64,000 nt of DNA, taken from IMG/VR virus record IMGVR_UViG_3300042511_000631, positions 1-64,000 of that record, one strand, 5' to 3'. Every line of letters begins with the position of its first letter. Positions within the stretch are counted from its first letter, which is position 1. A program made the position numbers and the translations under genes. Below, one piece after another: positions 1 through 59,547 of this stretch. The notes beneath the pieces are model-generated. The model was not told the origin of the DNA. It saw only the letters and a program-made list of their open reading frames with translations, and did not search any database. The DNA comes from a virus.

Positions 1-120
1 CCAACTCCTCCACCGCCAACTCCTCCACCGCCAACTCCTCCACCGCCAACTCCTCCACCGCCAACTCCTCCACCGCCAACTCCTCCACCGCCAACTCCTC
101 CACCGCCAACTCCACCGCCT
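1..120 (+). repeat. 15-bp tandem repeat, seven exact copies plus one variant
   Basis: The unit ccaactcctccaccg occurs seven times without change at 1-105, followed by a variant copy at 106-120. It probably continues leftward beyond the window. It is in frame, giving PTPPP units, so copy-number change would alter rod length without shifting frame. Confidence 0.95.
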
Positions 121-3234: not shown

Positions 3235-3495
3235 CTATGTAAATTGTCTTTTAGACCGTCTTGATATATTTTTACGTTCGTCTTCCGTTGTTCCCGCCCA
3301 GATCCCGCGTTCGCGGTTTTCTAAAGCCCAAGTAAGGCAAGCGGCGTTGAAATCACATGTTCTACATATAGCTTTGATTTGTCGTGCCGCGGAAGCTTCT
3401 TCAATTCTATCCGTTGGAAAGAATGTTTCTAAGTCCACTTTACGACAAGGTTGTGTGCCATCAAAGGCCGGAGCCTTATACGTGCATTTGTCCAT
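3235..3495 (-). CDS. WhiB-family iron-sulfur transcription factor
   Basis: An 86-residue protein with the four cluster cysteines C17, C44, C47 and C53 (a further Cys at position 4), the turn motif GIWAGTTEDER (64-74) and a basic C-terminus. WhiB/Wbl proteins bind a [4Fe-4S] cluster and act on the host sigma factor. Phage copies such as mycobacteriophage TM4 WhiBTM4 interfere with host septation genes. It follows the lysozyme-like gene by 3 nt on the same strand, with AAAGGAA before its ATG. Its presence points to an actinobacterial host. Confidence 0.92.
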   Translation of the reverse strand: MDKCTYKAPAFDGTQPCRKVDLETFFPTDRIEEASAARQIKAICRTCDFNAACLTWALENRERGIWAGTTEDERKNISRRSKRQFT

Positions 3496-3498
3496 GTA

Positions 3499-4008
3499 TT
3501 ATTCCTTTGGGAATGCTTTTAGGAAGCTCTCGTATCTTTCACCATTAGTTTGATTTTGGTACACCTTCCAAGATGACCAGTCTTTTCCACCGTTAGACAT
3601 GTGAAACGCTATCTCAGCGTTTGTAACGGGGTTAAAGAGGTCTGCGTTAGAGTCTAGGTTAAACTTTTTCCTTCGGTCTTCCCCTAGGCTTCCAATCATG
3701 TTGATCTGGAAGACTCCATATGAATTGTCGCCAGTGCCGCTATTTCCGTTGTGCGCTACTGGTCGACCGTTTGATTCTTTCATAGCAACTGCCCAAGCGG
3801 TCTTGAGAGCTTTTCCCTCAAAACCAACCGCTTCTAATAGATCTTTTAATTCTGCTTTGGTAAGAACCTTAGCTTCTTTAAATGTATCTAACGGGCTCAC
3901 AACTTTAATAACTTCTGGAACTACTGGTTCTGCCATTACTGGCGGACAGTTACCCCACAAAATTAAAAAAGTTGCTACTACTGCTGTACGTTTTCTGATA
4001 TTAAGCAT
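3499..4008 (-). CDS. secreted lysozyme-like / lytic transglycosylase protein
   Basis: A 169-residue protein with a signal peptide or N-terminal anchor: basic MLNIRKR, hydrophobic AVVATFLILW, then a polar stretch with a possible AEP cleavage site near residue 27. The transglycosylase fold is shown by catalytic E78 in AMKESNGRP and the motif GDNSYGVFQINM at 93-104. It should cleave peptidoglycan glycan strands outside the membrane. Being on the opposite strand from the CHAP endolysin, it may act at a different stage. RBS GAGAGGAG lies upstream. Confidence 0.82.
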   Translation of the reverse strand: MLNIRKRTAVVATFLILWGNCPPVMAEPVVPEVIKVVSPLDTFKEAKVLTKAELKDLLEAVGFEGKALKTAWAVAMKESNGRPVAHNGNSGTGDNSYGVFQINMIGSLGEDRRKKFNLDSNADLFNPVTNAEIAFHMSNGGKDWSSWKVYQNQTNGERYESFLKAFPKE

Positions 4009-4050: not shown

Positions 4051-4127
4051 TCTGTCATGTTCTAGACTGCCACAGCCTTACAGCCAAAGTCAAGTGGAAG
4101 TAAATATATTTTGTTTACTATGACAAG

Positions 4128-4168
4128 TTATCCACAAGAAACTAACATTTAACAAGTAGTTATCCACA
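4128..4168 (+). other. two perfect DnaA boxes (candidate replication origin)
   Basis: TTATCCACA occurs at 4128-4136 and 4160-4168 in the same orientation, 32 bp apart (about three helical turns), within the 222-bp divergent gap. The flanks are AT-rich (TAAATATATTTTG at 4101-4113). This is the consensus site for bacterial DnaA. It may be a phage origin using host DnaA or a DnaA-responsive regulatory site. Confidence 0.55.
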
Positions 4169-4192
4169 TTTTTTGTGCTTTTATTCGGAAAA

Positions 4193-4241
4193 CCATTCTG
4201 TGATCAAATTTAAATTGACATTTCTACAGAATGGGTATATT
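4193..4241 (+). promoter_or_regulatory. promoter within a 9-bp inverted repeat
   Basis: CCATTCTGT (4193-4201) and ACAGAATGG (4226-4234) are perfect inverted repeats. They flank a consensus -35 TTGACA at 4215-4220. A -10-like TATATT lies at 4236-4241 (spacing 15). The arrangement suggests a repressor operator over the promoter of the lysis/early block. Confidence 0.5.
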
Positions 4242-4464
4242 TGTGGTCACGGCTGATAAGATTGTTATTGCTCTCTTCCTTCTTGCGCAAACAGGGGCAG
4301 CAATCAAGTACTTTATGCGCCTTGAAAAGCGTCTAGACAGGATCGACTACCAGCTATATGAGAATGGCGGGAGTTCGATGAAAGACCAAATGAACGATAC
4401 CCGCGATGATCTACAGGAGCTTAAGACCAGTTTTTTAGTCTTAAAGGCTAAACTAGGGGAATAA
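4231..4464 (+). CDS. small membrane protein with coiled coil (holin/lysis candidate)
   Basis: A 77-residue protein with one N-terminal hydrophobic segment (about residues 9-26, KIVIALFLLAQTGAAI) followed by a charged helical region (RLEKRLDRIDYQL ... DLQELKTSFLVLKAKL) typical of a coiled coil. It directly precedes the CHAP endolysin, so a holin or similar lysis role is inferred. The start is unsure: ATG 4231 lies inside the promoter inverted repeat and lacks a good RBS, and GTG 4243 is an alternative. Confidence 0.6.
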   Translation: MGIFVVTADKIVIALFLLAQTGAAIKYFMRLEKRLDRIDYQLYENGGSSMKDQMNDTRDDLQELKTSFLVLKAKLGE

Positions 4465-4480: not shown

Positions 4481-5041
4481 ATGGCAGAGATGGGAACAGT
4501 CGAGAAGCTTATCGACGTAGCCGAAGATGAAATTGGTACTATTGAAGGTCCTAAGGACAATGAGACAAAGTACGGCGCTTTTACTAAGTCTAACTTTCAG
4601 CCATGGTGCGGAAGCTTTGTAAACTGGTGCGGTGACCAAGCGGGAGTAAAAATCCCTAAGACTGTGTACACCCCTTCCGGCGCAGACGCATTTAAAAAGT
4701 CTGGTCGTTGGGAAGACGCAGCCGCTGCCACCCCAAAGAAAGGCGATATCGCCTATTTTGATTTCCCGGCAGATGGCGTCAATCGAATCTCGCATGTTGG
4801 AATTGTTGTAAAGGTAAACAAAGATGGCACCGTTATGTGCATCGAGGGCAACACCTCAGGTGACAAAAAGGGTGACCAGCGCAATGGTGGAGAAGTTTGC
4901 TTAAAACTCCGCGGGTACAAGAAAAACCCAAAGAATGTTATGATTTCTATTGTTGGATTTGGACGCCCTAAGTTCGTCGAGGCTCCAAGTGCAGATGCCC
5001 CAGCCGCAGCTGCTGCAAAATGTCCAACCTGCGGTAAGTAA
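4481..5041 (+). CDS. CHAP-domain endolysin
   Basis: A 186-residue protein. The CHAP cysteine peptidase/amidase motif is clear: catalytic C43 in PWCGSFVNW, H105 in RISHVGIV and an acidic/Asn partner in IEGNTS (122-126). GDIAYFDFP before the histidine is typical. It should cut peptide bonds of the cell wall at lysis. The C-terminus is an Ala-rich linker and a short CPTCGK tail that could bind metal. RBS AAGGAG precedes ATG by 7 nt. No signal peptide is seen, so release would need a holin. Confidence 0.88.
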   Translation: MAEMGTVEKLIDVAEDEIGTIEGPKDNETKYGAFTKSNFQPWCGSFVNWCGDQAGVKIPKTVYTPSGADAFKKSGRWEDAAAATPKKGDIAYFDFPADGVNRISHVGIVVKVNKDGTVMCIEGNTSGDKKGDQRNGGEVCLKLRGYKKNPKNVMISIVGFGRPKFVEAPSADAPAAAAAKCPTCGK

Positions 5042-21904: not shown

Positions 21905-22460
21905 AGATACAAAAGTATTTACTAAAAATATAGCTACATTAAACTCTGAAGATATCTTATCTTTAAAGAGTAGCACGCATAAAGATGTATACAGCTATGA
22001 GAACTTTAAAAAAATAGGATATGAAAAAATTAATAGCCCTAAAAATATATTTCAAGAATATAATGCAGAAACGTATAAAGTGTATAAAGAGATCTCAAAT
22101 CTACTAAATGACGCCTGTAATCATTATCTAATAGATCAAGAGCGGCAAAATTATTTTATTAAAGGTAAAGTGTTTGAGTACAACAAAGATCATAATAATG
22201 AGATTTTTGATTTTCCTGGGAGAGATATTCCAATTTTTCATGGGTTTGTTATTTTGGGCGAAGAGGGATTAAAGCAAACATACTACACTGATAAAAGTAA
22301 AAAAGAGTTTATTTTTAGTAAAAATACAATCACACTATCCGCACCAACAAATCTTATAAATAATAAAGTTAATAACAGCTGCAAAGTTATAGAGTACTAT
22401 ATATCCCCATTGTCATCTACTATTCAAAATGAAAAAAATCTTTGGGTTCCTATTTTATGA
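21888..22460 (+). CDS. hypothetical protein of the 2OG-oxygenase island
   Basis: 190 residues, very AT-rich coding (Lys/Asn/Ile-rich). A beta-rich C-terminal half (PIFHGFVILGEEGLKQTYYTD...TITLSAPTN.....KVIEYYISPL) could be a degenerate jelly roll, but no HxD iron motif is visible. It overlaps both neighbours (the last overlap is ATGA). Role unknown; it may be a non-catalytic relative of its neighbours. Confidence 0.5.
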   Translation: MKYTHRDTKVFTKNIATLNSEDILSLKSSTHKDVYSYENFKKIGYEKINSPKNIFQEYNAETYKVYKEISNLLNDACNHYLIDQERQNYFIKGKVFEYNKDHNNEIFDFPGRDIPIFHGFVILGEEGLKQTYYTDKSKKEFIFSKNTITLSAPTNLINNKVNNSCKVIEYYISPLSSTIQNEKNLWVPIL

Positions 22461-23038
22461 AATCGTATAGCACAAACAACTTTTTAGAAACTGATGCCTT
22501 TAATGAAGTGCACTTAGCTTGTGTAGAAAAAAGTAAAAGCTTTAGAAATATACATTATGCGAGCGGGTATGGCAGATACGGCGTTTTTATAGACTTTTCA
22601 AAAGAAATTGAAGATATTTTTGTTAAAAAAGCAAGAGAAGCCTTTAAAACAGAGGATTTATTTATTACTTACATCCAATTAGTTAAATATCAGATAGTAG
22701 AAAACAATATCCCAAGGCTCACTCCCCATATTGATGACCTGCCAGGAACACGGGTTATTGACTTGTGTGTTGACACGACTTTGAGTAATTGGGGTCTTTT
22801 GGTTAACGATACGCTGTTTATAGATACGCCTAACACGGCAATATTTTTATATGGGCAAGAAGAGATCCACTCTAGGCCAGAGTACACTTCAAACAGCCCA
22901 AAAGACTACTCTTTACAACTACTTATAAACTTTGCGCCCAAAAACTTTTGGTTTTTTAAAGGAGACTACAAAAAAGCCTTAAAATATGTAATTCCTTCCC
23001 CGGTTATGTACGGCGATGGTGTTGTAACACAAAGTTGA
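22457..23038 (+). CDS. diverged 2OG/Fe(II) oxygenase-like protein
   Basis: 193 residues from ATG 22457 (overlapping the preceding stop as ATGA). H91-x-D93 (LTPHIDDLPG) followed by WGLLVNDT...NTAIFLYGQEEIHSRPEYTS (H138, R140) fits a jelly-roll iron site. The usual YLNDDYEGGEL block and the H-x9-R/K spacing of its neighbours are absent. It is probably a distant family member, and activity is uncertain. A hairpin and a promoter-like site follow it. Confidence 0.6.
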   Translation: MKSYSTNNFLETDAFNEVHLACVEKSKSFRNIHYASGYGRYGVFIDFSKEIEDIFVKKAREAFKTEDLFITYIQLVKYQIVENNIPRLTPHIDDLPGTRVIDLCVDTTLSNWGLLVNDTLFIDTPNTAIFLYGQEEIHSRPEYTSNSPKDYSLQLLINFAPKNFWFFKGDYKKALKYVIPSPVMYGDGVVTQS

Positions 23039-23039
23039 A

Positions 23040-23064
23040 CACCAAAGCCAGTTGGTGCTATAGT
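23040..23064 (+). promoter_or_regulatory. hairpin plus extended -10 promoter candidate
   Basis: CACCAA (23040-23045) pairs with TTGGTG (23052-23057), and TGC-TATAGT (-10 at 23059-23064) follows at once. It would start transcription of the main oxygenase cluster from 23092, which has RBS GTGGAG. Confidence 0.45.
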
Positions 23065-23091
23065 TCGTAGAACTTTAAAAGTGGAGATATT

Positions 23092-23811
23092 ATGGATGTA
23101 TACAACGAGAATGAAAACCCCTGGTTTACTAAAGATCGGTCTGAGACAGCTTCCAACAGGGTTGTAAGACTAATGCCTAAAAGCAATATCCCTATTAGTA
23201 ATCCGGGACTAGGGTTAAATGTTTATCATAATACTTTTTCTTTGGATGACTCTAAAAGGTATATTAAAACGCTTGAGTCCAACTTGGCTAATGGCGGCAA
23301 ATATAAGTGGTCAGAAGCCCAAGTAACAAACTCTGACGTGCCGATTAAAAAAGCAAGAGATTGCGTAGACTTTAAGTACAAACAAGAAAATCTAGGGCCA
23401 AGAGACGAATCTAATAAAGAGTTACTTGATCTTCATGAAGAGATATATCAAAAACTAAAGATGTGTGTGGACGACTACGCACACTACTGGGGCATAAATG
23501 TTACATATTATGAAGCATTTAACTTTGTAAAATACGAAGGTGAGGGTACCCATTTTAATATTCATGCCGATCATGGCCCTGCTTACAACTGCACAGTCTC
23601 TGCGGTAATCTATATTAATGACGATTATGAAGGTGGAGAGCTTAAATTTCCAAGACTAGATAACCTTGTTCATGTCCCAAAAGTTGGTGATATAGCTATT
23701 TTCCCTTCAAACTATATTTATGAACACGCATCTTTGCCGATGAAAACAGGAACAAAATACTGTGTTGTTATCATGACAGATATAAATCTTTTAGGCCATC
23801 CGACAACTTAA
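23092..23811 (+). CDS. 2OG/Fe(II) oxygenase (prolyl 4-hydroxylase-like)
   Basis: 239 residues. Iron ligands H158-x-D160 (NIHADHG) and H212 (YEHASLP); K222 (TGTKY) is the likely 2-oxoglutarate anchor. The core block is VIYINDDYEGGELKFP, then V.KVGDIAIFPSNYIY. It is closest to the next gene in layout: both share RDCVDFK(Y/F)K near residue 90, YYEAFN..KYE before the HxD, and NCT(V/L)S after it, so they are paralogues from a duplication. Substrate unknown. Confidence 0.88.
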   Translation: MDVYNENENPWFTKDRSETASNRVVRLMPKSNIPISNPGLGLNVYHNTFSLDDSKRYIKTLESNLANGGKYKWSEAQVTNSDVPIKKARDCVDFKYKQENLGPRDESNKELLDLHEEIYQKLKMCVDDYAHYWGINVTYYEAFNFVKYEGEGTHFNIHADHGPAYNCTVSAVIYINDDYEGGELKFPRLDNLVHVPKVGDIAIFPSNYIYEHASLPMKTGTKYCVVIMTDINLLGHPTT

Positions 23812-23824
23812 ACTAGGAGAATAT

Positions 23825-24499
23825 ATGAGTACAGAACCTACAACCCCACAATCTTGGAGTAGTTATGAAGAGCTTGCTCCAGGAATATTTGTTTACCACG
23901 ACGTCTTACCAACAGGTCTAAACCTTGTTGATAGACTAGAGTCTGTTTTACAACCTTTAGGGTCTACTGGGTATGCTTGGCAACCAGCTTATGTGGGGTA
24001 TCAACAGCTAATGCCGGAGTATAGAGATTGTGTTGATTTTAAGTTTAAAAAAACAGATGTTCAAAAAGATAATTCAGAAAGCTCTAGGCAACTACAAGAA
24101 ATTTGGCAAGACTGCTACGATAGACAAGCGTTAGCGGTAGAGGATTATTGCCAACGATTTAACATCAACAACTTAAGGTATTGGGAAGCCTTTAACTATA
24201 TTAAGTATGAGGCGGGGCATCATTTTATGGAGCATCACGATCACGGGTTCTCTTATAACTGCACGCTGTCTTTAGTCGCCTATCTTAATGATACTTTTGA
24301 GGGTGGAGAGTTGTTCTTTAGACTTCAAGGGCTAACATATGTCCCAAAAGCTGGAGATGTTGTACTATTCCCGTCTAACTTTATGTACCCTCATCAAGCA
24401 AAAGTCGTTCACTCTGGGACAAAATACTCATTAGTAACAATGCTTGACTATAGTGAAAAGTACCATACACCAGACATGTATCATGAGACTGGATCATAA
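23825..24499 (+). CDS. 2OG/Fe(II) oxygenase (prolyl 4-hydroxylase-like)
   Basis: 224 residues. H137-x-D139 (EHHDHG), H190 (YPHQAK), K200 (SGTKYSLV); core VAYLNDTFEGGELFF and KAGDVVLFPSNFMYPH. Clear paralogue of the preceding gene. AGGAG precedes the ATG, and the stop overlaps the next ATG by 1 nt (TAATG), coupling it to a DUF6065-like gene. Confidence 0.88.
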   Translation: MSTEPTTPQSWSSYEELAPGIFVYHDVLPTGLNLVDRLESVLQPLGSTGYAWQPAYVGYQQLMPEYRDCVDFKFKKTDVQKDNSESSRQLQEIWQDCYDRQALAVEDYCQRFNINNLRYWEAFNYIKYEAGHHFMEHHDHGFSYNCTLSLVAYLNDTFEGGELFFRLQGLTYVPKAGDVVLFPSNFMYPHQAKVVHSGTKYSLVTMLDYSEKYHTPDMYHETGS

Positions 24500-25221
24500 T
24501 GTCAATTATTACGGCTTATAAAAAAACACCAACGGCGTTGATTATAGAGCCAATGTCTATTAAGCGCGACTGGATGGACGAAACTCCACAAGGCCATGCT
24601 TATAGGTGCCACCCGGTAACCTCCGCCAATGTTGTTGGTTGGAGCATATCTTCTCCAGTAGACATTAAGTTTATTTGGAACGGTATTAACGACACAAGCG
24701 GTACATCTGTAAAAATTTTAGAAGGTCAAACCTATGTTTATACAGGTAGAGGGCAATCTACAGTTAGCTTTAATACTGGTTTTATCCTTAAAACAAATCA
24801 AAATGTAAGTGTACTAACTGTTACACCTCAAAATTATTTTAATCCAGATATAGAAGTCATGTCTTCTTTGATATCTACATCCTTTTTAAGCACTGATTTC
24901 CCGTTAGCAATTAAGTGCCTGACAGCAAACAAAGAAATTACTATTAAAGCAGGAACTCCAATAGCAACTATCATTCCTATATCTTTGACCTCTTTAAAGG
25001 ATGAATCGGTTGAAGTTGTTGAGTTTGTTCAAACTAAAGAGTACACCGATGCGGTAACATCCTATGGCGCGGCCGCTCAAGAAATAAATAAAACCGGAGA
25101 GTGGACTGATTGGTATAGAAATGCTGTAAACGAAAAGGGGGATTCAGTAGGGTCCCATGAAGTAAAAAACTTAAAGCTTAGTGTTATTGATAATACAGGG
25201 GCTAATAATGAAAATAATTAA
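24499..25221 (+). CDS. DUF6065-like protein
   Basis: 240 residues. The segment IKRDWMDETPQGHAYRCHPVTSANVVGWSI...VDIKFIWNG has the conserved R-W-M-D, YRC.P and W.I landmarks I associate with DUF6065. The C-terminus (TGEWTDWYRNAVNEKGDSVGSHE) is also typical. Biochemical role unknown. It is translationally coupled to a 2OG oxygenase, as the similar gene at 1410 is. Confidence 0.7.
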   Translation: MSIITAYKKTPTALIIEPMSIKRDWMDETPQGHAYRCHPVTSANVVGWSISSPVDIKFIWNGINDTSGTSVKILEGQTYVYTGRGQSTVSFNTGFILKTNQNVSVLTVTPQNYFNPDIEVMSSLISTSFLSTDFPLAIKCLTANKEITIKAGTPIATIIPISLTSLKDESVEVVEFVQTKEYTDAVTSYGAAAQEINKTGEWTDWYRNAVNEKGDSVGSHEVKNLKLSVIDNTGANNENN

Positions 25222-25972
25222 TTTTATAAGCAATAGACCGTGGCTTACTAAAGAGAGTAAATCAAAACCGGTTCCGACCTCAAAGTCAATACCGCAATGG
25301 TACAAAAACGCGGATAGGTTTGCTAAAATGCCAACTGGAGAACACTACCAAGCAACAAAAGAGATGTGTCCATTCCCTAAAAAAGGCACAACTGATGATT
25401 ATGGGAAGATCCCTACATGGAAAGCTTGTCCTGCACTTTTGGATGTTTTAACAACAGGGTATACCTTGATCACTCCTTGCGACATAGAGTTTTTCTTAGA
25501 TAGCGCTGGGCAGATTGATTTTAAAATTGAAGACCCAATGTATAAAGAGTTTGTTAACAAACGCCCACCTATGCCACAATTTTATCACCCAAAGGGTTAC
25601 TACGAATATCATTTTGCTTGGTGGCCCGAATGGGCGGTAAAAGTTCCAGCTGGGTATAGCGTTTTATATGTATCTCCGTTTAATCGTTACGACATTCCAA
25701 TTATGACAGTTTCTGGGATTATTGATAACGACGAGGTTAACCTTCCTGGATTAATGCCATTTTTTGTACAAGAAGGCTGGGCTGGAGTTTTACCAGCAGG
25801 CACTCCTTACGCTCAACTGTTGCCTTTTTTAAGGGAAGATTGGAAGTCTGAAATTAACATTCCAAAAGAAGTAGAGATGATACAAAACAATATGGAAAAC
25901 AGCAAAAAGTATCGTATTGCAGATGGAGGGGTGTATCAGAAAGAGGTCTGGACTAGGCGGCTCTACGAATAG
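25208..25972 (+). CDS. conserved phage protein, distantly DUF6065-like
   Basis: 254 residues from ATG 25208 (14-nt overlap with the previous gene). Features: PTSKSIPQWYKNADRF near the start, FPKKGTTDDYGKIPTWKACPALLD (possible Cys site), TPCDIEFFLD, YHFAWWPEWAVKVPAGYSVLYVSPFNRYDIPI and GTPYAQLLPFLREDW. This layout is frequent in phages beside 2OG oxygenases; it may bind a small molecule or the modified substrate. Function unknown. Confidence 0.6.
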   Translation: MKIINFISNRPWLTKESKSKPVPTSKSIPQWYKNADRFAKMPTGEHYQATKEMCPFPKKGTTDDYGKIPTWKACPALLDVLTTGYTLITPCDIEFFLDSAGQIDFKIEDPMYKEFVNKRPPMPQFYHPKGYYEYHFAWWPEWAVKVPAGYSVLYVSPFNRYDIPIMTVSGIIDNDEVNLPGLMPFFVQEGWAGVLPAGTPYAQLLPFLREDWKSEINIPKEVEMIQNNMENSKKYRIADGGVYQKEVWTRRLYE

Positions 25973-25979
25973 GGAATGG

Positions 25980-25985
25980 TATAAT
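25980..25985 (+). promoter_or_regulatory. leaderless promoter, TATAAT 6 nt before ATG
   Basis: TATAAT with upstream TGG (extended -10) ends 6 nt before ATG 25992. No RBS is present, so the mRNA probably begins at or next to the start codon, a mode common in actinobacteria. Confidence 0.65.
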
Positions 25986-25991
25986 TAAAAC

Positions 25992-26672
25992 ATGAAACAA
26001 AACAATGACTCATACACGACAGTTAAACGCACACCGTCTATGACCCCATCTGGTTGGTTTGGGGATAGCAAGGACATGATTGTCGAGCTAGAGAACTTCA
26101 TGACGCTAGAAGAAATAGAGTTTTTAGAAAAAGCTGCTAAATCTTTAACAATTTGGGATGTAACGCAAAGCCATACGAATGAAAATGGAACCGTTACCTA
26201 TGATTCAGATTATTGGAAAGATAGGGTTGCAAGTCAACCAACCTTAGATAAAAATGATCCAAAGATATCCCCAGTAATTGCTGGACTATTCATAAGATTA
26301 AAACCAATTATTGAAGAGTTTTATAAGGTAAAGGCCCAGCCAACAGGCACAACTATTGTTAAATGGCTCCCTGGGCAGTTTCAAAACCCCCATGCTGATA
26401 AAGAGCTTCATGAAGGGCCTGATGCTGGGACACCTAATGATTTTCCAAACTATGACCTTTCAAGTTTGTTTTATCTTAATGACGATTATGAAGGTGGCGA
26501 ACTATACTTCCCACTACAGGGGGTACAGTTTAAACCTAAAAAAGGCGCTGCTTACTTCTTCCCGGGAGATAAAAATTATATTCACGGGGTTACTGAAATC
26601 AAGAGTGGTTTAAGGTTTACATGCCCACTATTTTGGGAAATAACCCGACATACAGGGGATAGGCAACCGTAA
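25992..26672 (+). CDS. 2OG/Fe(II) oxygenase
   Basis: 226 residues. H134-x-D136 (NPHADKE), H198 (YIHGVTEI), R208 (GLRFT); core SLFYLNDDYEGGELYFP and PKKGAAYFFPGD. A 20-residue insertion follows the HxD motif. It is apparently transcribed from its own leaderless promoter, so it could be expressed at a different time from the preceding genes. Substrate unknown. Confidence 0.88.
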   Translation: MKQNNDSYTTVKRTPSMTPSGWFGDSKDMIVELENFMTLEEIEFLEKAAKSLTIWDVTQSHTNENGTVTYDSDYWKDRVASQPTLDKNDPKISPVIAGLFIRLKPIIEEFYKVKAQPTGTTIVKWLPGQFQNPHADKELHEGPDAGTPNDFPNYDLSSLFYLNDDYEGGELYFPLQGVQFKPKKGAAYFFPGDKNYIHGVTEIKSGLRFTCPLFWEITRHTGDRQP

Positions 26673-26679
26673 TGACGGA

Positions 26680-26685
26680 TATAAT
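26680..26685 (+). promoter_or_regulatory. leaderless promoter, TATAAT 6 nt before ATG
   Basis: TATAAT sits exactly 6 nt before ATG 26692, with no RBS in between. The same geometry is seen at 25980, 51612, 53423 and 59548. Confidence 0.65.
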
Positions 26686-26691
26686 ACAATT

Positions 26692-27465
26692 ATGAAATCT
26701 ATTTATGATATCCCGCTTAATTCGGCCGAAGGGGCCCCTAGCTTCTTAGGCCAATTTAAGGGTAAAGTAACGCTGCTAACAAATACGACAGTGGGCTGTG
26801 GTAATGCTAATCAAATGGAAGTTCTCCAATGGCTTCAAGATAAGTACGGTGGAGATGATTTCCAAGTAGTTGCTATCCCTACTAATGACTACTGTGGCCC
26901 TGGCGTTACTAAGGGCAAGTGGTCACAAGGCATTACTTGTGGCTTAGACTCACAAGAGTATGGCAAAGACACTTATGGGACTACCTTTAAGTTTTCAGAG
27001 ATGGTTGCGTCAAACCCAAATAAAAGTGCTAATGAAATGAGCCCTCACAAAGGAAATGACTCTGTAAATGGGTTAGGTCAACCTAAACAAAAAACTCATG
27101 AGCTGTATAAAGAAATATCAGATCAAATGCTTGCGTATGCCGCAAAACAAAAAGAGCTCGGCATTCCAGATAGAGATGGGTATATGTCACCTTGGCTAAA
27201 TCAACCTGTCGCTAATGGAGCAATGCAAGGCGGAAACTTTGAAAAGTATCTTATTGATAAAGACGGATTTGTGGCAAATTGGTTCCAATGTACCGTTTTA
27301 AATTATGATATTGAAAAAACCCTTAAAGAAGATTTAATAGCTAAAGGCACCCCTGCTGCTATGGGAGAAGGCAGAACTCCAGAAGTATTTGAAGAAGAAT
27401 ATAACCTTGTTCAACAAGAGATAGAAAAATTAATTGCTGGAGATAAATCCCTTATAAATAACTAA
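26692..27465 (+). CDS. glutathione-peroxidase-like (thioredoxin-fold) protein
   Basis: 257 residues. The pattern SIYDIPLNSAEG..SFLGQFKGKVTLLTNTTVGCGNANQ...L..LQDKYG...FQVVAIPTNDY is that of glutathione peroxidases, with C36 at the peroxidatic Cys/Sec position. KYLIDKDGFVANWF near residue 192 matches the late conserved strand. A 60-residue central insertion and a helical C-terminus are unusual. It may protect oxidation-sensitive Fe(II) enzymes or detoxify peroxide made by uncoupled oxygenases; this is inference. It is leaderless. Confidence 0.75.
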   Translation: MKSIYDIPLNSAEGAPSFLGQFKGKVTLLTNTTVGCGNANQMEVLQWLQDKYGGDDFQVVAIPTNDYCGPGVTKGKWSQGITCGLDSQEYGKDTYGTTFKFSEMVASNPNKSANEMSPHKGNDSVNGLGQPKQKTHELYKEISDQMLAYAAKQKELGIPDRDGYMSPWLNQPVANGAMQGGNFEKYLIDKDGFVANWFQCTVLNYDIEKTLKEDLIAKGTPAAMGEGRTPEVFEEEYNLVQQEIEKLIAGDKSLINN

Positions 27466-27481
27466 ACGGAGCACAAGCACA

Positions 27482-28237
27482 ATGAATCTAGAAAACAAAA
27501 AAAGAATAACAAAAGACATAGTTGTTTATAAGAACTTTATAAGCAGAGAAGACTGCAAAAAAATGATTCAAGCCTTAGATGCTCAAGCGGACAACGGGGC
27601 AATTTCTTGGATGCCTATTTCATTTTATGAGTCATACTCTTCAGTATTGCCACAAGACAACGATAAAGAAATAATTGATGCTGGGCTATCTCCAACTATA
27701 TTCTCAGACATTGAAAAAATAATGCCAGAGGCAATTGCTTCAGTTCACGACTTAGACCCAAAAACAATTTCTAAAATCGGGTATCACACACAAAAATGGG
27801 AGCCGGGAGCATACGCAAGAATCCACTCTGACAATACGGATGCGCATGGAAAGTCAGGGGCATTTACAAGAAGCCGTTACGCAGGTTTTCTATATCTTAA
27901 TGATGACTTTAAAGGAGGATTACTTAAGTTTCCAAGTCAACACATAGAGATCAAACCAGAAGTTGGAATGCTTGCCGTTTTTGACGGGGGATTTAACAAC
28001 ATGCACGAAGTATCTTTAATAGAGAGCGGAGTAAGGTACACCATTGGATCTTTCTGGGATGATAGAGAAGAGTCAGATTATCCGCAAGAACTAAGAGATG
28101 CTTGGGCTGCAGAAATGAAAGAGACTAGAGCTCAACAAGAAGTTGAACGAGCAGAGTGGCAAGATTTGCTTAAGCAGGGCTGGAAGCTAGATGCGGACGG
28201 TAATAAATACAAAGTAAAAGAGACTACAAATGATTGA
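27482..28237 (+). CDS. 2OG/Fe(II) oxygenase with C-terminal helical tail
   Basis: 251 residues. H115-x-D117 (ARIHSDNTD), H175 (NMHEVSLI), R185 (GVRYTIGSFW); core GFLYLNDDFKGGLLKFP and EVGMLAVFDGG. The last 50 residues form a charged helix (ELRDAWAAEMKETRAQQEVERAEWQDLL) followed by GWKLDADGNKYKVK, absent from the paralogues and possibly a substrate-docking element. RBS CGGAG. It overlaps the next gene by 8 nt. Confidence 0.88.
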   Translation: MNLENKKRITKDIVVYKNFISREDCKKMIQALDAQADNGAISWMPISFYESYSSVLPQDNDKEIIDAGLSPTIFSDIEKIMPEAIASVHDLDPKTISKIGYHTQKWEPGAYARIHSDNTDAHGKSGAFTRSRYAGFLYLNDDFKGGLLKFPSQHIEIKPEVGMLAVFDGGFNNMHEVSLIESGVRYTIGSFWDDREESDYPQELRDAWAAEMKETRAQQEVERAEWQDLLKQGWKLDADGNKYKVKETTND

Positions 28238-28889
28238 GCCCTTTAAACAACAGTTGATAGATAGCGGGTATGTAGTTACAGATATTACCCCAGAACTATT
28301 TTCTGTTGAAAACTTTTTATCACAAGATCAACTAAATACTTTTTGGGATATTATCCACAGTACGTCTCAAGAAGATTGGGAAGTAGAGTACCACGCAAAC
28401 TTAAAGTATTTTTGCATGGAAAAATTTGGCAGAGATGATGTTGATAACCTGGTTGCTGAAGGTAAGTTTGAAATTACTCAAAATTGGAAAGATAAAAACT
28501 TTAATATATTACATCACGAGATCCAGAGGCCATTATATGACGGCTTAAACTCAATGGTAGTCAAAGCTGATCCAGAGTTAATTTTAAGTGGTTTTGCAAC
28601 AATTCAAAGAATGCAAACAGGAGTAGAACTAAAAGCTCATACTGACCAAAAAACAGACCCCTCTATAAAATACGCTACGATTGTATATATTAATGATGAC
28701 TATGCAGATGGCGAGTTATTTTTTCCAAACCTGGGGATCCAGTTAAAGCCTAAACCAGGAACTATGTTGTTTTTTCCAGGTAATGAGCAATATGAGCATG
28801 GGGTTAAGCACGTAGGTGAGGGCCAAATAAGATACGTTCTTGTTGGCTTTATTAAAGAAAAATATCACTATCAAAATAATAAATACTAG
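28230..28889 (+). CDS. 2OG/Fe(II) oxygenase
   Basis: 219 residues. H137-x-D139 (KAHTDQKT), H190 (YEHGVKHV), R201 (QIRYVLVGF); core TIVYINDDYADGELFFP and PKPGTMLFFPGNEQYEHG. The N-terminal half is helical and unlike the other paralogues. Its start lies within the end of the preceding oxygenase gene, suggesting coupled translation. Confidence 0.87.
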   Translation: MIEPFKQQLIDSGYVVTDITPELFSVENFLSQDQLNTFWDIIHSTSQEDWEVEYHANLKYFCMEKFGRDDVDNLVAEGKFEITQNWKDKNFNILHHEIQRPLYDGLNSMVVKADPELILSGFATIQRMQTGVELKAHTDQKTDPSIKYATIVYINDDYADGELFFPNLGIQLKPKPGTMLFFPGNEQYEHGVKHVGEGQIRYVLVGFIKEKYHYQNNKY

Positions 28890-28899
28890 GGAGCATTAA

Positions 28900-29589
28900 A
28901 TGGATAAAGAAATTTTAAATGAAAAAGTATACTACTATAAAAATGGCGTTAAAAACTTTGAAGAGCTTATGAAAAATGTTTATGAGTTAGACAATCTAGA
29001 TAACCCTCAACCTTGGGAAAACTGGACCGCATCCAACGACAAAAACTTTATCTATGGAAAAACCATGTCATTTGATAAAAACCAAATAGGAAAACTAGAA
29101 GATCCGTACAAATCTAAAATGTCTTATATTTTTGATACTATTATGGAATCATTTTATGATGTCTCTAAAGATTTTGCCATGTCTATTGGGGATACTGATG
29201 AACCTAGACTGTTTCCAGTATTTAATATTAAAAAATACAATGTTGGAATTGGAATGGGTGCCCATTTTGACCAGCTAGATGGGGATCAAACCCTAAGGTA
29301 CTCTTTAGTTATGTATTTAAACGATGATTTTGAGGGTGGAGAAATATCATTTAAATTATCTGACTATAAAAATATAGGGGAATTTCCAACTCCAAATCTT
29401 GATTATGATGTGGCTGTTGCAAATAATGAAATTGATTTTGGATTAAAACCTAAAGCTGGAAGTATTATTATTTTTCCATCTATGGCGCCATATCACCATA
29501 CTGCTCATATTGTAAAAACTGGATTTAAATATATGGTGCCAAGTCACTGGATCCATAATAATATGGACCTTCATCAAAGTCACATGTAA
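28900..29589 (+). CDS. 2OG/Fe(II) oxygenase
   Basis: 229 residues. H122-x-D124 (GAHFDQLDG), H200 (PYHHTAHIV), K210 (GFKYMVPSHW); core LVMYLNDDFEGGEISF. A 25-residue insertion (about 155-180) separates this block from PKAGSIIIFPS. RBS AGGGAG lies upstream. It is followed after 5 nt by the short-chain dehydrogenase, so a two-step oxidation (hydroxylation, then dehydrogenation) is conceivable but unproven. Confidence 0.87.
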   Translation: MDKEILNEKVYYYKNGVKNFEELMKNVYELDNLDNPQPWENWTASNDKNFIYGKTMSFDKNQIGKLEDPYKSKMSYIFDTIMESFYDVSKDFAMSIGDTDEPRLFPVFNIKKYNVGIGMGAHFDQLDGDQTLRYSLVMYLNDDFEGGEISFKLSDYKNIGEFPTPNLDYDVAVANNEIDFGLKPKAGSIIIFPSMAPYHHTAHIVKTGFKYMVPSHWIHNNMDLHQSHM

Positions 29590-29594
29590 TATAA

Positions 29595-30260
29595 ATGAAA
29601 ACAGCTATTGTAACTGGGGCAAGCAAAGGGGTAGGGTTAGCAACAGTTAAACGCCTGTCTGAAAATGGGTACAAGGTCATCGCTGTTTCAAGAGATCTTT
29701 CCAAAGTGTCTGAGCTTGTTTCTGATAACGTTGAGGTCTATAGGCTAGACATTACAGACTCTAAAGCAATAGAAATATTCTTTGAAAAATATAAAAATAT
29801 AACCCTAGACCTTTTAGTTAACAACGCAGGTGGCGGCTCTGGACCAACCCACATTATTAATGAAACTCCAGAAAACTTTAGAAGAGCCTACGATATAAAC
29901 GTAACGGGCCCTATGTATTTATCTCAACTATTTGTACCCTGTATGAGAAGGTCACAATCTCCAACAATTGTCTTTATTACCTCTTTTGGCGGTAAGGTGC
30001 CCTATCGCGGTGGGGGGAACTATACAAATGCCAAGAGGGGTGAGCGCGGTCTAATTGACACCATGAGGCTTGAGTTTCCTCAATTTGGCATTAAAATTAC
30101 AGATATCTGCCCAGCTACCATCGACACCCAAGAACAAAAACGGGATCAGGCGTTAACCGCAGAGGATTTAGCGGAAGCTATTTACTGGGTGGGGTCATTA
30201 CCAAGCCATGTTAATATAAATGAGATTGAAATTTGTCATATTAACAGTAGTAAGTACTGA
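29595..30260 (+). CDS. short-chain dehydrogenase/reductase
   Basis: 221 residues. Rossmann fold with cofactor motif TGASKGVG (7-14), NNAG (76-79) and catalytic S130, Y143, K147 (YTNAK). R33 after the second strand (VSRD) suggests NADP(H) preference. The family interconverts alcohols and carbonyls on sugars, lipids, nucleosides and other substrates. It is the last gene of the accessory island. It may act on the product of a neighbouring oxygenase or on a surface sugar. Confidence 0.88.
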   Translation: MKTAIVTGASKGVGLATVKRLSENGYKVIAVSRDLSKVSELVSDNVEVYRLDITDSKAIEIFFEKYKNITLDLLVNNAGGGSGPTHIINETPENFRRAYDINVTGPMYLSQLFVPCMRRSQSPTIVFITSFGGKVPYRGGGNYTNAKRGERGLIDTMRLEFPQFGIKITDICPATIDTQEQKRDQALTAEDLAEAIYWVGSLPSHVNINEIEICHINSSKY

Positions 30261-46038: not shown

Positions 46039-46662
46039 ATGGAAAAGCATTATGTTGTAATTGCGGGTAATGGTGAAACTAGCCGCGCAAACCTTGAAGC
46101 CCTTATGGAAGACTACTTTTACACAAAAGGCGCAGACGGAATAGTCACAGTTCACATTGTTGTGGAAGGCGCGTTAAGCCCCGGAAAAACTTTTGCTACG
46201 CAGTACTCAGAAAGCAAGGGCAAAGAAGTTTTTCAACTGGGCGTAAAAGACAGTCTACAAAAAGCGGATCGAGTAAATACGTCCTGTTTCATCCTGTGGT
46301 CTGATGAAGACTCAGAGTGCCAGAAAGTTTTGGCGGTAGCCACCCAAATGGGGATCCCATGCTTTGACTTGACCGAAGGTCTTCTCCCAATCACCGCATC
46401 TAACGGAATCAAGGCTGCGGTGGAACCCGTGATCCCAGTACAGGAAACCTTGACCCCGCCAGTTGTTGAGGAGCCTTACGTTGAACCTGAGGATGAGGAT
46501 GTTGAAGAAGACGGCGAAGAGGAAGAAGCCGAGTACGACGAGGAAGACATGGATAGCCTCTATTTCGGCGTGGAGGCCATTGCCAAGATATTTGCAAAAG
46601 CTATGGTTAAGGAATTGACCGAGCAGGGTGTTTTAAAGCCTTCCAAGGCACCTGAGGCATGA
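46039..46662 (+). CDS. hypothetical Rossmann-like protein with acidic linker
   Basis: 207 residues. The N-terminal 125 residues (YVVIAGNGETSRANLEALMEDYFY...KADRVNTSCFILWSDEDSECQKVLAVATQMGIPCFDL) alternate beta and alpha like a nucleotide-binding Rossmann/SLOG domain. An extremely acidic linker follows (about 148-172), then a short helix. It is the first gene of the replication module. Function unknown. Confidence 0.6.
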   Translation: MEKHYVVIAGNGETSRANLEALMEDYFYTKGADGIVTVHIVVEGALSPGKTFATQYSESKGKEVFQLGVKDSLQKADRVNTSCFILWSDEDSECQKVLAVATQMGIPCFDLTEGLLPITASNGIKAAVEPVIPVQETLTPPVVEEPYVEPEDEDVEEDGEEEEAEYDEEDMDSLYFGVEAIAKIFAKAMVKELTEQGVLKPSKAPEA

Positions 46663-47531
46663 TTTCAGCCCGAGCCCTAGGCATCCTTTTGGAAATCGCT
46701 TCTACAGGCCTCCAAGGCGGTGCTGACACCCTTTCTCTCCATTTTAAAGAGGGGCGTGACGCCTGCCAGTCTGCCCTGACCGAACTACGCAAGGCCGGTC
46801 TGATAGAGACCAAAACCAACAAGTTCAATGGCGGGTTTAGCCGGTCAATTGAGGTCACGGAGCTAGGATTTACTTTCCTGGAAAGCCGTATAAGTATAAC
46901 CCTGAAAAGCCGTACATCCATACTGCTGTCACAGCCTAATAGCATATTAAGCACTAATAGCTTATTAGCAAATAAGCAAGAAATAGTACCCGACGGGGTC
47001 GGGGATGAAGAATTTTACAAGGTCGATTTAAAAACGGGAGGCGAAATGGATTTCTTAGGGCAAATGGATTTAGACCCTGATGACCGCGAGGAACAACTTC
47101 GCAAAGGGCGAGAACGCCGAAAGCTGGATTATCAAGACGCCAAGCAGCAAAAGCACGATGCTATGGTTGCTACAGCTGAAAATCGTTTACCGGCGATGTG
47201 GTCGACCAACCAAAGCTCATCGGAGTTCATCAAGCGCCTTGAGGACATGTGGCATGTAAAACCTTGGACTGTCAGTCAAGCCCCCTTCAGAGCATCCCTA
47301 GCCAACGCTAGAAAGGCCTACGACACAGACGGCGAGATTGAGATTTTGATGATGGATTTGTATTTTAAGCAGATTGCTCATGAAACTTCTATTGACAACC
47401 CTGAGCATATTTGGCGAAGATTCATCCAACAATTTAGCTCACTTGCGATTGAGGCAAAACGGTCTAGGGTTACCGACGACGATATTGAAACTGAAAAGAT
47501 TAAAGCCGCAAAGTCTTGGGAAGGTATTTAA
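46659..47531 (+). CDS. winged-helix replication protein (initiator/loader candidate)
   Basis: 290 residues. N-terminal winged helix (ISARALGILLEIASTGLQGGADTLSLHFKEGRDACQSALTELRKAGLIETK), a linker, then a helical C-terminal domain. Position immediately upstream of the AAA helicase loader suggests a replication initiator or DnaD/DnaT-like primosome protein. It overlaps the previous gene by 4 nt and the next by 1 nt. Confidence 0.62.
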   Translation: MISARALGILLEIASTGLQGGADTLSLHFKEGRDACQSALTELRKAGLIETKTNKFNGGFSRSIEVTELGFTFLESRISITLKSRTSILLSQPNSILSTNSLLANKQEIVPDGVGDEEFYKVDLKTGGEMDFLGQMDLDPDDREEQLRKGRERRKLDYQDAKQQKHDAMVATAENRLPAMWSTNQSSSEFIKRLEDMWHVKPWTVSQAPFRASLANARKAYDTDGEIEILMMDLYFKQIAHETSIDNPEHIWRRFIQQFSSLAIEAKRSRVTDDDIETEKIKAAKSWEGI

Positions 47532-58923: not shown

Positions 58924-59254
58924 GGGTCAAATAGAGTCAAAGAAGCATGAGGTACGGCTAGCCAAGGAGATTGGCGGAACGCGTAATGCGGGAAGCGGAT
59001 CGTTTTGGAGTCGTAAAGGTGATGTCCGCAGTAGCGATCTACTTATTGAACATAAGTGGACGGGCAAAGCTTCCTTCACTGTCAAAGCGACAGTTTTGGA
59101 AAAGATTGTTAGAGAAGCAATTCTTGACAATCGGACGCCTGTCCTCGGCTTCAGTCTCAATAATGAAAATTATGTGATGCTCACTGAAGATGATTTTCTG
59201 GAACTACGCCAGAATCTTCAGGAGTGTACTTGTACCAAGACAACGAGCACGTAG
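58913..59254 (+). CDS. PD-(D/E)xK nuclease, Holliday junction resolvase-like
   Basis: 113 residues from ATG 58913. E13, then GGTRNAGSGSFWSRKGDVRSSDLLIEHKWT containing D42 and E46-x-K48, is the archaeal-Hjc/phage resolvase-type active site. It should cut branched DNA. Its start lies within recA. Confidence 0.78.
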   Translation: MKSKGQIESKKHEVRLAKEIGGTRNAGSGSFWSRKGDVRSSDLLIEHKWTGKASFTVKATVLEKIVREAILDNRTPVLGFSLNNENYVMLTEDDFLELRQNLQECTCTKTTST

Positions 59255-59547
59255 AAAGCTGGCGCTACAACGCTAAGTGTCGCGGCATGGATACTGAATT
59301 ATGGTATCCCCCAAGAGATAAAACCAAATACAAAACTATTGCCGAAGTATCTAAAGCTGTGTGCTACGGCAAAGATGGTTTACCAGAGTGCCCTGTTCGT
59401 AAGCAGTGCTTGTTGTATGCAGACAAGATGGATGAGCAGCACGGTATCTGGGGCGGTATGTCACACCGCGAACGTAACGCATTAAAACGTAAAGCTACAA
59501 AAATGGGTTACTCTTTAAAAGATTGGGTAGAACGAAAGAAACCGTGA
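59224..59547 (+). CDS. second WhiB-family protein
   Basis: 107 residues from GTG 59224. Cys ligands C19, C47, C56, C62 and GIWGGMSHRER (74-84). The canonical CxxC spacing is expanded to C-x8-C, a variant also found in phage Wbl proteins. The basic tail (RNALKRKATKMGY...ERKKP) should contact DNA. Located in the recombination module, it may time middle or late transcription or redirect host sigma factor. Confidence 0.85.
   Translation: MYLYQDNEHVESWRYNAKCRGMDTELWYPPRDKTKYKTIAEVSKAVCYGKDGLPECPVRKQCLLYADKMDEQHGIWGGMSHRERNALKRKATKMGYSLKDWVERKKP

Follow-up and report, generated by a model that had tools for sequence, protein, structure and literature searches.

The intergenic region at 4.1 kb of this phage genome carries a pair of DnaA boxes that is real and not a product of chance. 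Comparison with related sequences inclines us to the view that host DnaA docks at the pair to regulate transcription, and that the pair is not a replication origin, since the fixed distance between boxes and promoters in the relatives makes gene switching more likely than a replication start. Within the window (the whole stretch of DNA that was analysed, 64,000 nt), the pair probably controls two divergent transcription units, one encoding WhiB and a lysozyme, the other a holin and an endolysin.

The Phage and Its Likely Host

The window covers positions 1 to 64,000 of a virus record of 96,518 bp, from a phage with the genes of a contractile tail. The phage terminase is 53% identical to the one in Streptomyces phage BRock, and two of the phage genes encode WhiB. 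The presence of WhiB is used to recognise phages of actinobacteria, and the GC content of the window (43%) is near that of Ca. Nanopelagicales (≈42%) (PMC6802176); a freshwater actinobacterium is therefore the likely host. A direct repeat of ≈113 bp was seen at the two ends (window positions 1-113 and record positions 96406-96518), but it is composed of 15-bp tandem repeats (CCAACTCCTCCACCG), which makes the completeness of the record uncertain. Rfam and tRNA scans of the window gave nothing.

Sequence and Statistics of the Box Pair

The pair and the tract beside it are arranged as follows:

4101-4120, no strand assigned: A+T-rich tract adjoining box 1, from sequence
4128-4136, plus strand: DnaA box 1, exact TTATCCACA, reading TGTGGATAA toward the leftward unit
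4160-4168, plus strand: DnaA box 2, exact TTATCCACA, 32 bp after box 1

Both boxes are thus on the same strand, 32 bp apart from start to start, and the repeat common to the two sites extends to 11 nt (AGTTATCCACA). The surrounding 200 bp (4078-4277) are 69% A+T, a value equalled or exceeded by 15 other windows in the record. The A+T-rich tract is not specific to the boxes, since similar tracts persist in relatives that have none.

That the boxes are chance matches without function is hardly credible. The count in the window alone is ordinary (TTATNCACA occurs three times, against a shuffle mean of 2.56, and is not over-represented), many relatives lack the pair, and three exact copies of TTATCCACA are lone ones within coding sequence (28351, 68537 and 70806, each inside an ORF). 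However, the full record contains seven exact copies, the others being the 4.1-kb pair and those at 83757 and 83768, where third-order Markov genomes gave a mean of 0.82. Among 1000 such simulated genomes, not one had seven or more copies, and not one had a same-strand pair within 40 bp. Moreover, the spacing and the box positions are kept in diverged phages, and the promoter geometry recurs (see below). These results bear out an initial annotation of the window, which had reported the 9-mer twice in the same orientation, 32 bp apart, in A+T-rich DNA between minus- and plus-strand units, had considered so close a pair unlikely to arise by chance, and had proposed counting the sites throughout the genome.

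The lone copy at 28351-28359 lies in an oxygenase-like ORF, and probably reflects protein-coding constraint, since the relative G005 has a copy at the same codons. By eye, translations of window positions 22442-30260 show about eight tandem 2OG-Fe(II)-oxygenase-like genes. This run is low in GC (≈35-40%), and the GC-skew minimum directly precedes it.

Divergent Genes and Putative Promoters

The pair is intergenic, with the minus-strand lysozyme-like/WhiB unit to the left and the plus-strand holin-like/endolysin unit to the right:

3235-3495, minus strand: WhiB-like transcription factor, gene 2 of the leftward unit (Pfam Whib, E 1.1e-16)
3499-4008, minus strand: SLT lysozyme-like gene, gene 1 of the leftward unit (Pfam SLT_3, E 3.9e-18)
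4064-4093, minus strand: putative leftward promoter of the SLT lysozyme-WhiB unit, from comparison with relatives
4120-4148, plus strand: putative rightward promoter of the holin/endolysin unit, from a consensus scan
4193-4234, plus strand: inverted repeat CCATTCTGT (4193-4201) / ACAGAATGG (4226-4234), just 5' of the holin-like start codon
4243-4464, plus strand: small holin-like ORF, gene 1 of the rightward unit, GTG start
4481-5041, plus strand: CHAP-domain endolysin (Pfam CHAP, E 1.3e-12; PHROG endolysin, E 1.9e-23)
59224-59547: second WhiB-like gene, in the replication block (Pfam, E 1.7e-16)

The lysozyme-like product has a signal peptide, as read from its sequence. The ORF at 4243-4464 had no match in Pfam or in PHROG, and is a putative holin by its size and position. 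Its longest form begins at 4231; the ATG at 4231 is missing in one relative.

Both promoters are putative and were assigned from consensus matches. The rightward one consists of ATGACA (4120-4125), a spacer of 17 bp and TAACAT (4143-4148). Box 1 falls inside this spacer, and the predicted transcription start (≈4155) shortly precedes box 2. The box-bearing phages keep this arrangement as NNGACA-17 bp-TA[A/C]CAT. The leftward promoter consists of TTGACT (4088-4093), 18 bp and CAGTCT (4064-4069), the latter a poor -10 element in this phage. In four box-bearing relatives, the leftward elements are TTGACA and TAAGGT, which lie 41-42 bp and 66-67 bp, respectively, from where box 1 starts. The leftward TTGACA is also retained in relatives without boxes.

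The inverted repeat in front of the holin-like ORF could be an operator or an RNA hairpin. In most relatives with the same layout, at least 7/9 of its paired positions are kept whether or not boxes are present, and it is therefore probably independent of DnaA. The RNA fold of the possible holin leader was unremarkable (z -1.5). Window positions 4215-4243 also contain TTGACA, 15 bp and TATATT ending exactly at the GTG start codon, which has no clear ribosome-binding site; a transcript from these elements would perhaps be leaderless.

Conservation of the Pair among Related Phages

Four further phages, each distinct, have the pair with its 32-bp spacing unchanged: L108, L309 (G010), L314 and L315. 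It was absent from L307, L308, L310, L311 and L313, which have the same layout, and L312, also of this layout, has only one degenerate box (TTATACACA). A pair that is not conserved at all and a pair that is strictly conserved could thus both be rejected, the former by the identical spacing in four diverged phages found with the small-gene searches, the latter by the five phages without the pair and the single TTATACACA of L312. Since about half of the phages with this lysozyme-holin layout do without it, the pair cannot be essential.

The pair-bearing phages were retrieved using two small neighbouring genes as queries. A search for relatives of the CHAP gene had missed them, because the 80 loci that it covered mostly have another gene layout, and the pair was found upstream of CHAP in a near-identical contig only. 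A neighbouring DUF4192 gene used as query found no relatives. As a rare signature of viral contigs the 32-bp spacing was rejected, the matches listed being mostly larger box arrays.

Within the five distinct pair-bearing phages, 17/18 box positions are invariant: all nine in box 1 and 8/9 in box 2, where the sole change (TTATACACA) falls on a position that is free in TTATNCACA. Between the boxes, 7/17 of the non-promoter bases are invariant in the box-bearing set. The sequences were in part selected for carrying boxes, so that invariance of the boxes is not by itself strong evidence, while the unchanged spacing is. Other blocks of the 4.1-kb region are conserved equally with the boxes, which are therefore one of several control elements. 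Other relatives that are just as close lack the pair, as do ≈75 more distant ones and nearly all relatives of roughly 100 kb, and the near-complete relatives G004, G007, G008, G009, G421, G422, G425 and G426 have no exact box. Retention in a sub-lineage together with absence elsewhere points to a lineage-specific control element rather than to a family-wide origin.

Host Boxes and the Cluster at 83.7 kb

The dnaA/oriC regions were compared in 30 small actinobacterial genomes (1.0-1.5 Mb, 41-53% GC around dnaA), whose link to the phage host we infer; TTATCCACA is their commonest clustered box (82 instances), and many of the boxes are 10-12 bp apart. The phage boxes match the DnaA box of these presumed hosts. 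A DnaA homologue was sought in the phage itself. No Bac_DnaA_C domain was detected in this genome (G000) at E up to 0.001, or in 15 related or similar phage records, some of them fragments, at E up to 1; control genomes did yield the DnaA DNA-binding domain. A winged-helix candidate at 46659-47531, the one possible initiator named in the initial annotation, had no Pfam match even at E 0.1.

A second group of boxes lies outside the window:

Record 83733-83776: cluster of four boxes in 44 bp, from sequence

It consists of TAATCCACA, TTATACACA and two inverted copies of TTATCCACA at a spacing of 11-12 bp, and is located 112 bp upstream of an early ArdC-like antirestriction gene. The close relative G010 carries a matching cluster. 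A 27-mer from the cluster with paired boxes (CACAGGCTGTGGATAACCTGTGGATAA) matched 1/84,980 bacterial and archaeal genomes, that of Phytomonospora, where the match overlaps the dnaA start. An exact tandem 21-mer was rejected as a general host signature, as it was found in the seed genome only among 394 actinobacterial genomes.

The initial annotation had suggested that the phage may recruit host DnaA to the 4.1-kb pair, as to a replication origin. That the boxes, either here or in the 83.7-kb cluster, form such an origin is unlikely. The A+T-rich tract adjoins the pair, the boxes at 83.7 kb are four in number and phased, and the phage encodes a loader, a DnaB-like helicase and a primase without a recognised initiator, as the annotation had noted and as gene context from Pfam and PHROG confirmed. 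On the other hand, the 4.1-kb site has just two boxes, with no closely phased cluster and no initiator gene beside them, and it belongs to a promoter region that serves the lysis block, at a long distance from the replication genes (46-60 kb). Conservation is patchy, with eight near-complete relatives lacking any exact box, and the many same-strand boxes per genome at promoters, in a constant geometry in the relatives, suit regulation better. Taken as a guide to the origin, the GC skew reaches its lowest value at 20.9 kb, with no more than a local minimum close to 84 kb and no switch at 4 kb; it tracks gene orientation. Recruitment of host DnaA thus remains plausible, given the host 9-mer and the lack of a phage DnaA, while the origin role assigned to it at 4.1 kb was not upheld. 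The annotation had also made its reading depend on conservation of the boxes in related phages, and there the outcome is divided, with retention in one sub-lineage and loss elsewhere.

Boxes at Early Promoters of Similar Phages

Using the early intergenic motif GTTTGTGTTGGCCCACC of this phage as a query, 44 stretches were retrieved. Several of these contain a single early block with exact boxes, one or two to an early intergenic region and always on the same strand, amounting to ten in G437, eleven in G441, nine each in G438 and G435, eight in G436 and five in G434, while a control with the reversed pattern gave 0-2 matches per record. Several of the relatives compared are fragments. The terminases of G434, G438 and G445 are 86-89% identical to that of this phage. 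The terminase search showed no kinship of G435, G436, G437, G439 and G441 to it, perhaps due to incomplete records.

The distance from the boxes to the promoters, which were called from consensus matches, falls into two classes. In L391, TANNNT is found at 48-49 bp in 8/10 boxes (P ≈ 3e-9 after allowing 70 windows), and in L391, L379 and L394 together in 14/22, although L391 and L379 are partly homologous and the counts therefore not fully independent. In another set of phages, a promoter-like -10 is found at 69-72 bp (7 matches vs. ≈0.2 expected). The two classes differ by ≈22 bp, or two helical turns. At the 83.7-kb cluster, TTGTAA is located 49 bp and TACCTT (-10) 72 bp from the proximal box, and the corresponding elements in G010 are TTGGTT at 46 and TAGATT at 69; both fit the ≈70-bp class.

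In this phage, boxes are missing from most of the other early modules, which have different motifs. The minus strand of record 79857-84720 has repeated early intergenic modules that contain a hairpin CCCTTATCCCTTCGGGATAGGG and TTGTGTTGGCCC, with a ATCGTTATA motif 51 or 62 bp before the -10, i.e., one helical turn apart, and GGCGTGTCG directly before the -35. An array of 11-12-bp units in L360 (1300-1380) mixes TTATCCACA with TTGTTCAC/TTGTTCAT, units that resemble strong and weak DnaA boxes. The Streptomyces relative BRock has no cluster of TTRTCCACA-like sites.

We considered the possibility that another regulator, of phage or host, recognises the same 9-mer and that DnaA is not involved. In some phages the conserved element extends beyond a DnaA box (TGTGGATAACTAGGTTAACA in L391, TGTGGATAACTTCCTGAGAG in L394), and phages encode WhiB and further regulators. 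However, the flanks differ from phage to phage and the 9-mer alone is common to all, a pattern that fits a shared host protein reading the 9-mer. The tandem spacing of 11-12 bp and the inverted partners are as in host dnaA/oriC regions, and the variant TTATACACA fits the DnaA consensus. A different regulator is therefore unlikely.

It is very unlikely that the boxes act as decoys, sequestering host DnaA and thereby blocking the start of host chromosome replication. Several exact copies per genome would multiply with phage copy number, and E. coli DnaA is known to be titrated by extra binding sites (PMC8203912), but a pure decoy needs neither a fixed distance, orientation and helical phasing relative to promoters nor the retained 32-bp spacing of the pair.

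A Proposed Role of Host DnaA as a Transcription Factor

That DnaA can activate or repress promoters is well established (PMC8203912). In our preferred reading, with host DnaA regulating transcription from the boxes, the host protein would bind the boxes and, when positioned upstream of early promoters, would help RNA polymerase. Sequence features expected of a DnaA-regulated promoter are found here: a consensus DnaA box is present in the promoter region, and the box-to-promoter distance is set, at 48-49 or ≈70 bp in the relatives and 72 bp at 83.7 kb, although for the window pair the match to this geometry is approximate (-10 at 66-67 bp in relatives). Box 1, in its TGTGGATAA orientation and ≈67 bp before the -10 in relatives, could help the leftward lysozyme-WhiB promoter. 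The pair overlaps the putative rightward holin/endolysin promoter and may thereby repress the lysis side, a speculation from position; this repression would be lifted once the supply of DnaA was exhausted or replicating copies of the phage genome had titrated it.

Action of host DnaA on a phage promoter is already known from lambda. There, two boxes downstream of pO are footprinted by host DnaA, which also stimulates the transcriptional activation of the lambda origin (PMC3985674). The present phage resembles lambda pR/pO in having a phage promoter region that carries DnaA boxes, but lambda has one origin-linked region, whereas here the boxes lie in a divergent lysis/WhiB promoter region and, in the relatives, at many early promoters with fixed geometry, remote from known origins. 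The promoters of E. coli dnaA and nrdAB likewise have consensus TTATCCACA boxes, and there activation or repression is set by the level and nucleotide state of DnaA (PMC8203912). Unlike these chromosomal genes, the boxes described here are phage-borne and form a repeated module.

Two further kinds of element invite comparison. Start-associated sequences of cluster K mycobacteriophages are repeated early-promoter elements of actinophages, and as here, they are short and occur once per small early gene; the element in the present phages differs in having an exact 9-bp DnaA box upstream of the promoter. P1 oriR is a DnaA-dependent phage/plasmid origin, and a DnaA-dependent origin was predicted by Ori-Finder in Pseudomonas phage PseuGes_254 (PMC11512268). 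These origins and our phage share the presence, within a mobile genome, of several DnaA boxes close to A+T-rich DNA, but the 4.1-kb region has two boxes and no adjacent initiator gene, is not conserved in the family, and shows promoter geometry instead.

In the literature searched, we did not find an early-promoter set built around DnaA boxes. As a tentative generalisation from sequence comparison, a group of lytic freshwater actinophages might use host DnaA as a common early transcription factor acting through boxes helically phased before the -10, to which one sub-lineage would have added a switch that favours WhiB and lysozyme and delays lysis until DnaA is depleted. If so, infection would be tied to the replication state of the host, with early transcription strongest when DnaA is active, and the timing of lysis could follow DnaA depletion. 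Such a set of promoters would also offer a signature by which phages of this kind could be recognised from sequence in uncultured actinobacteria.
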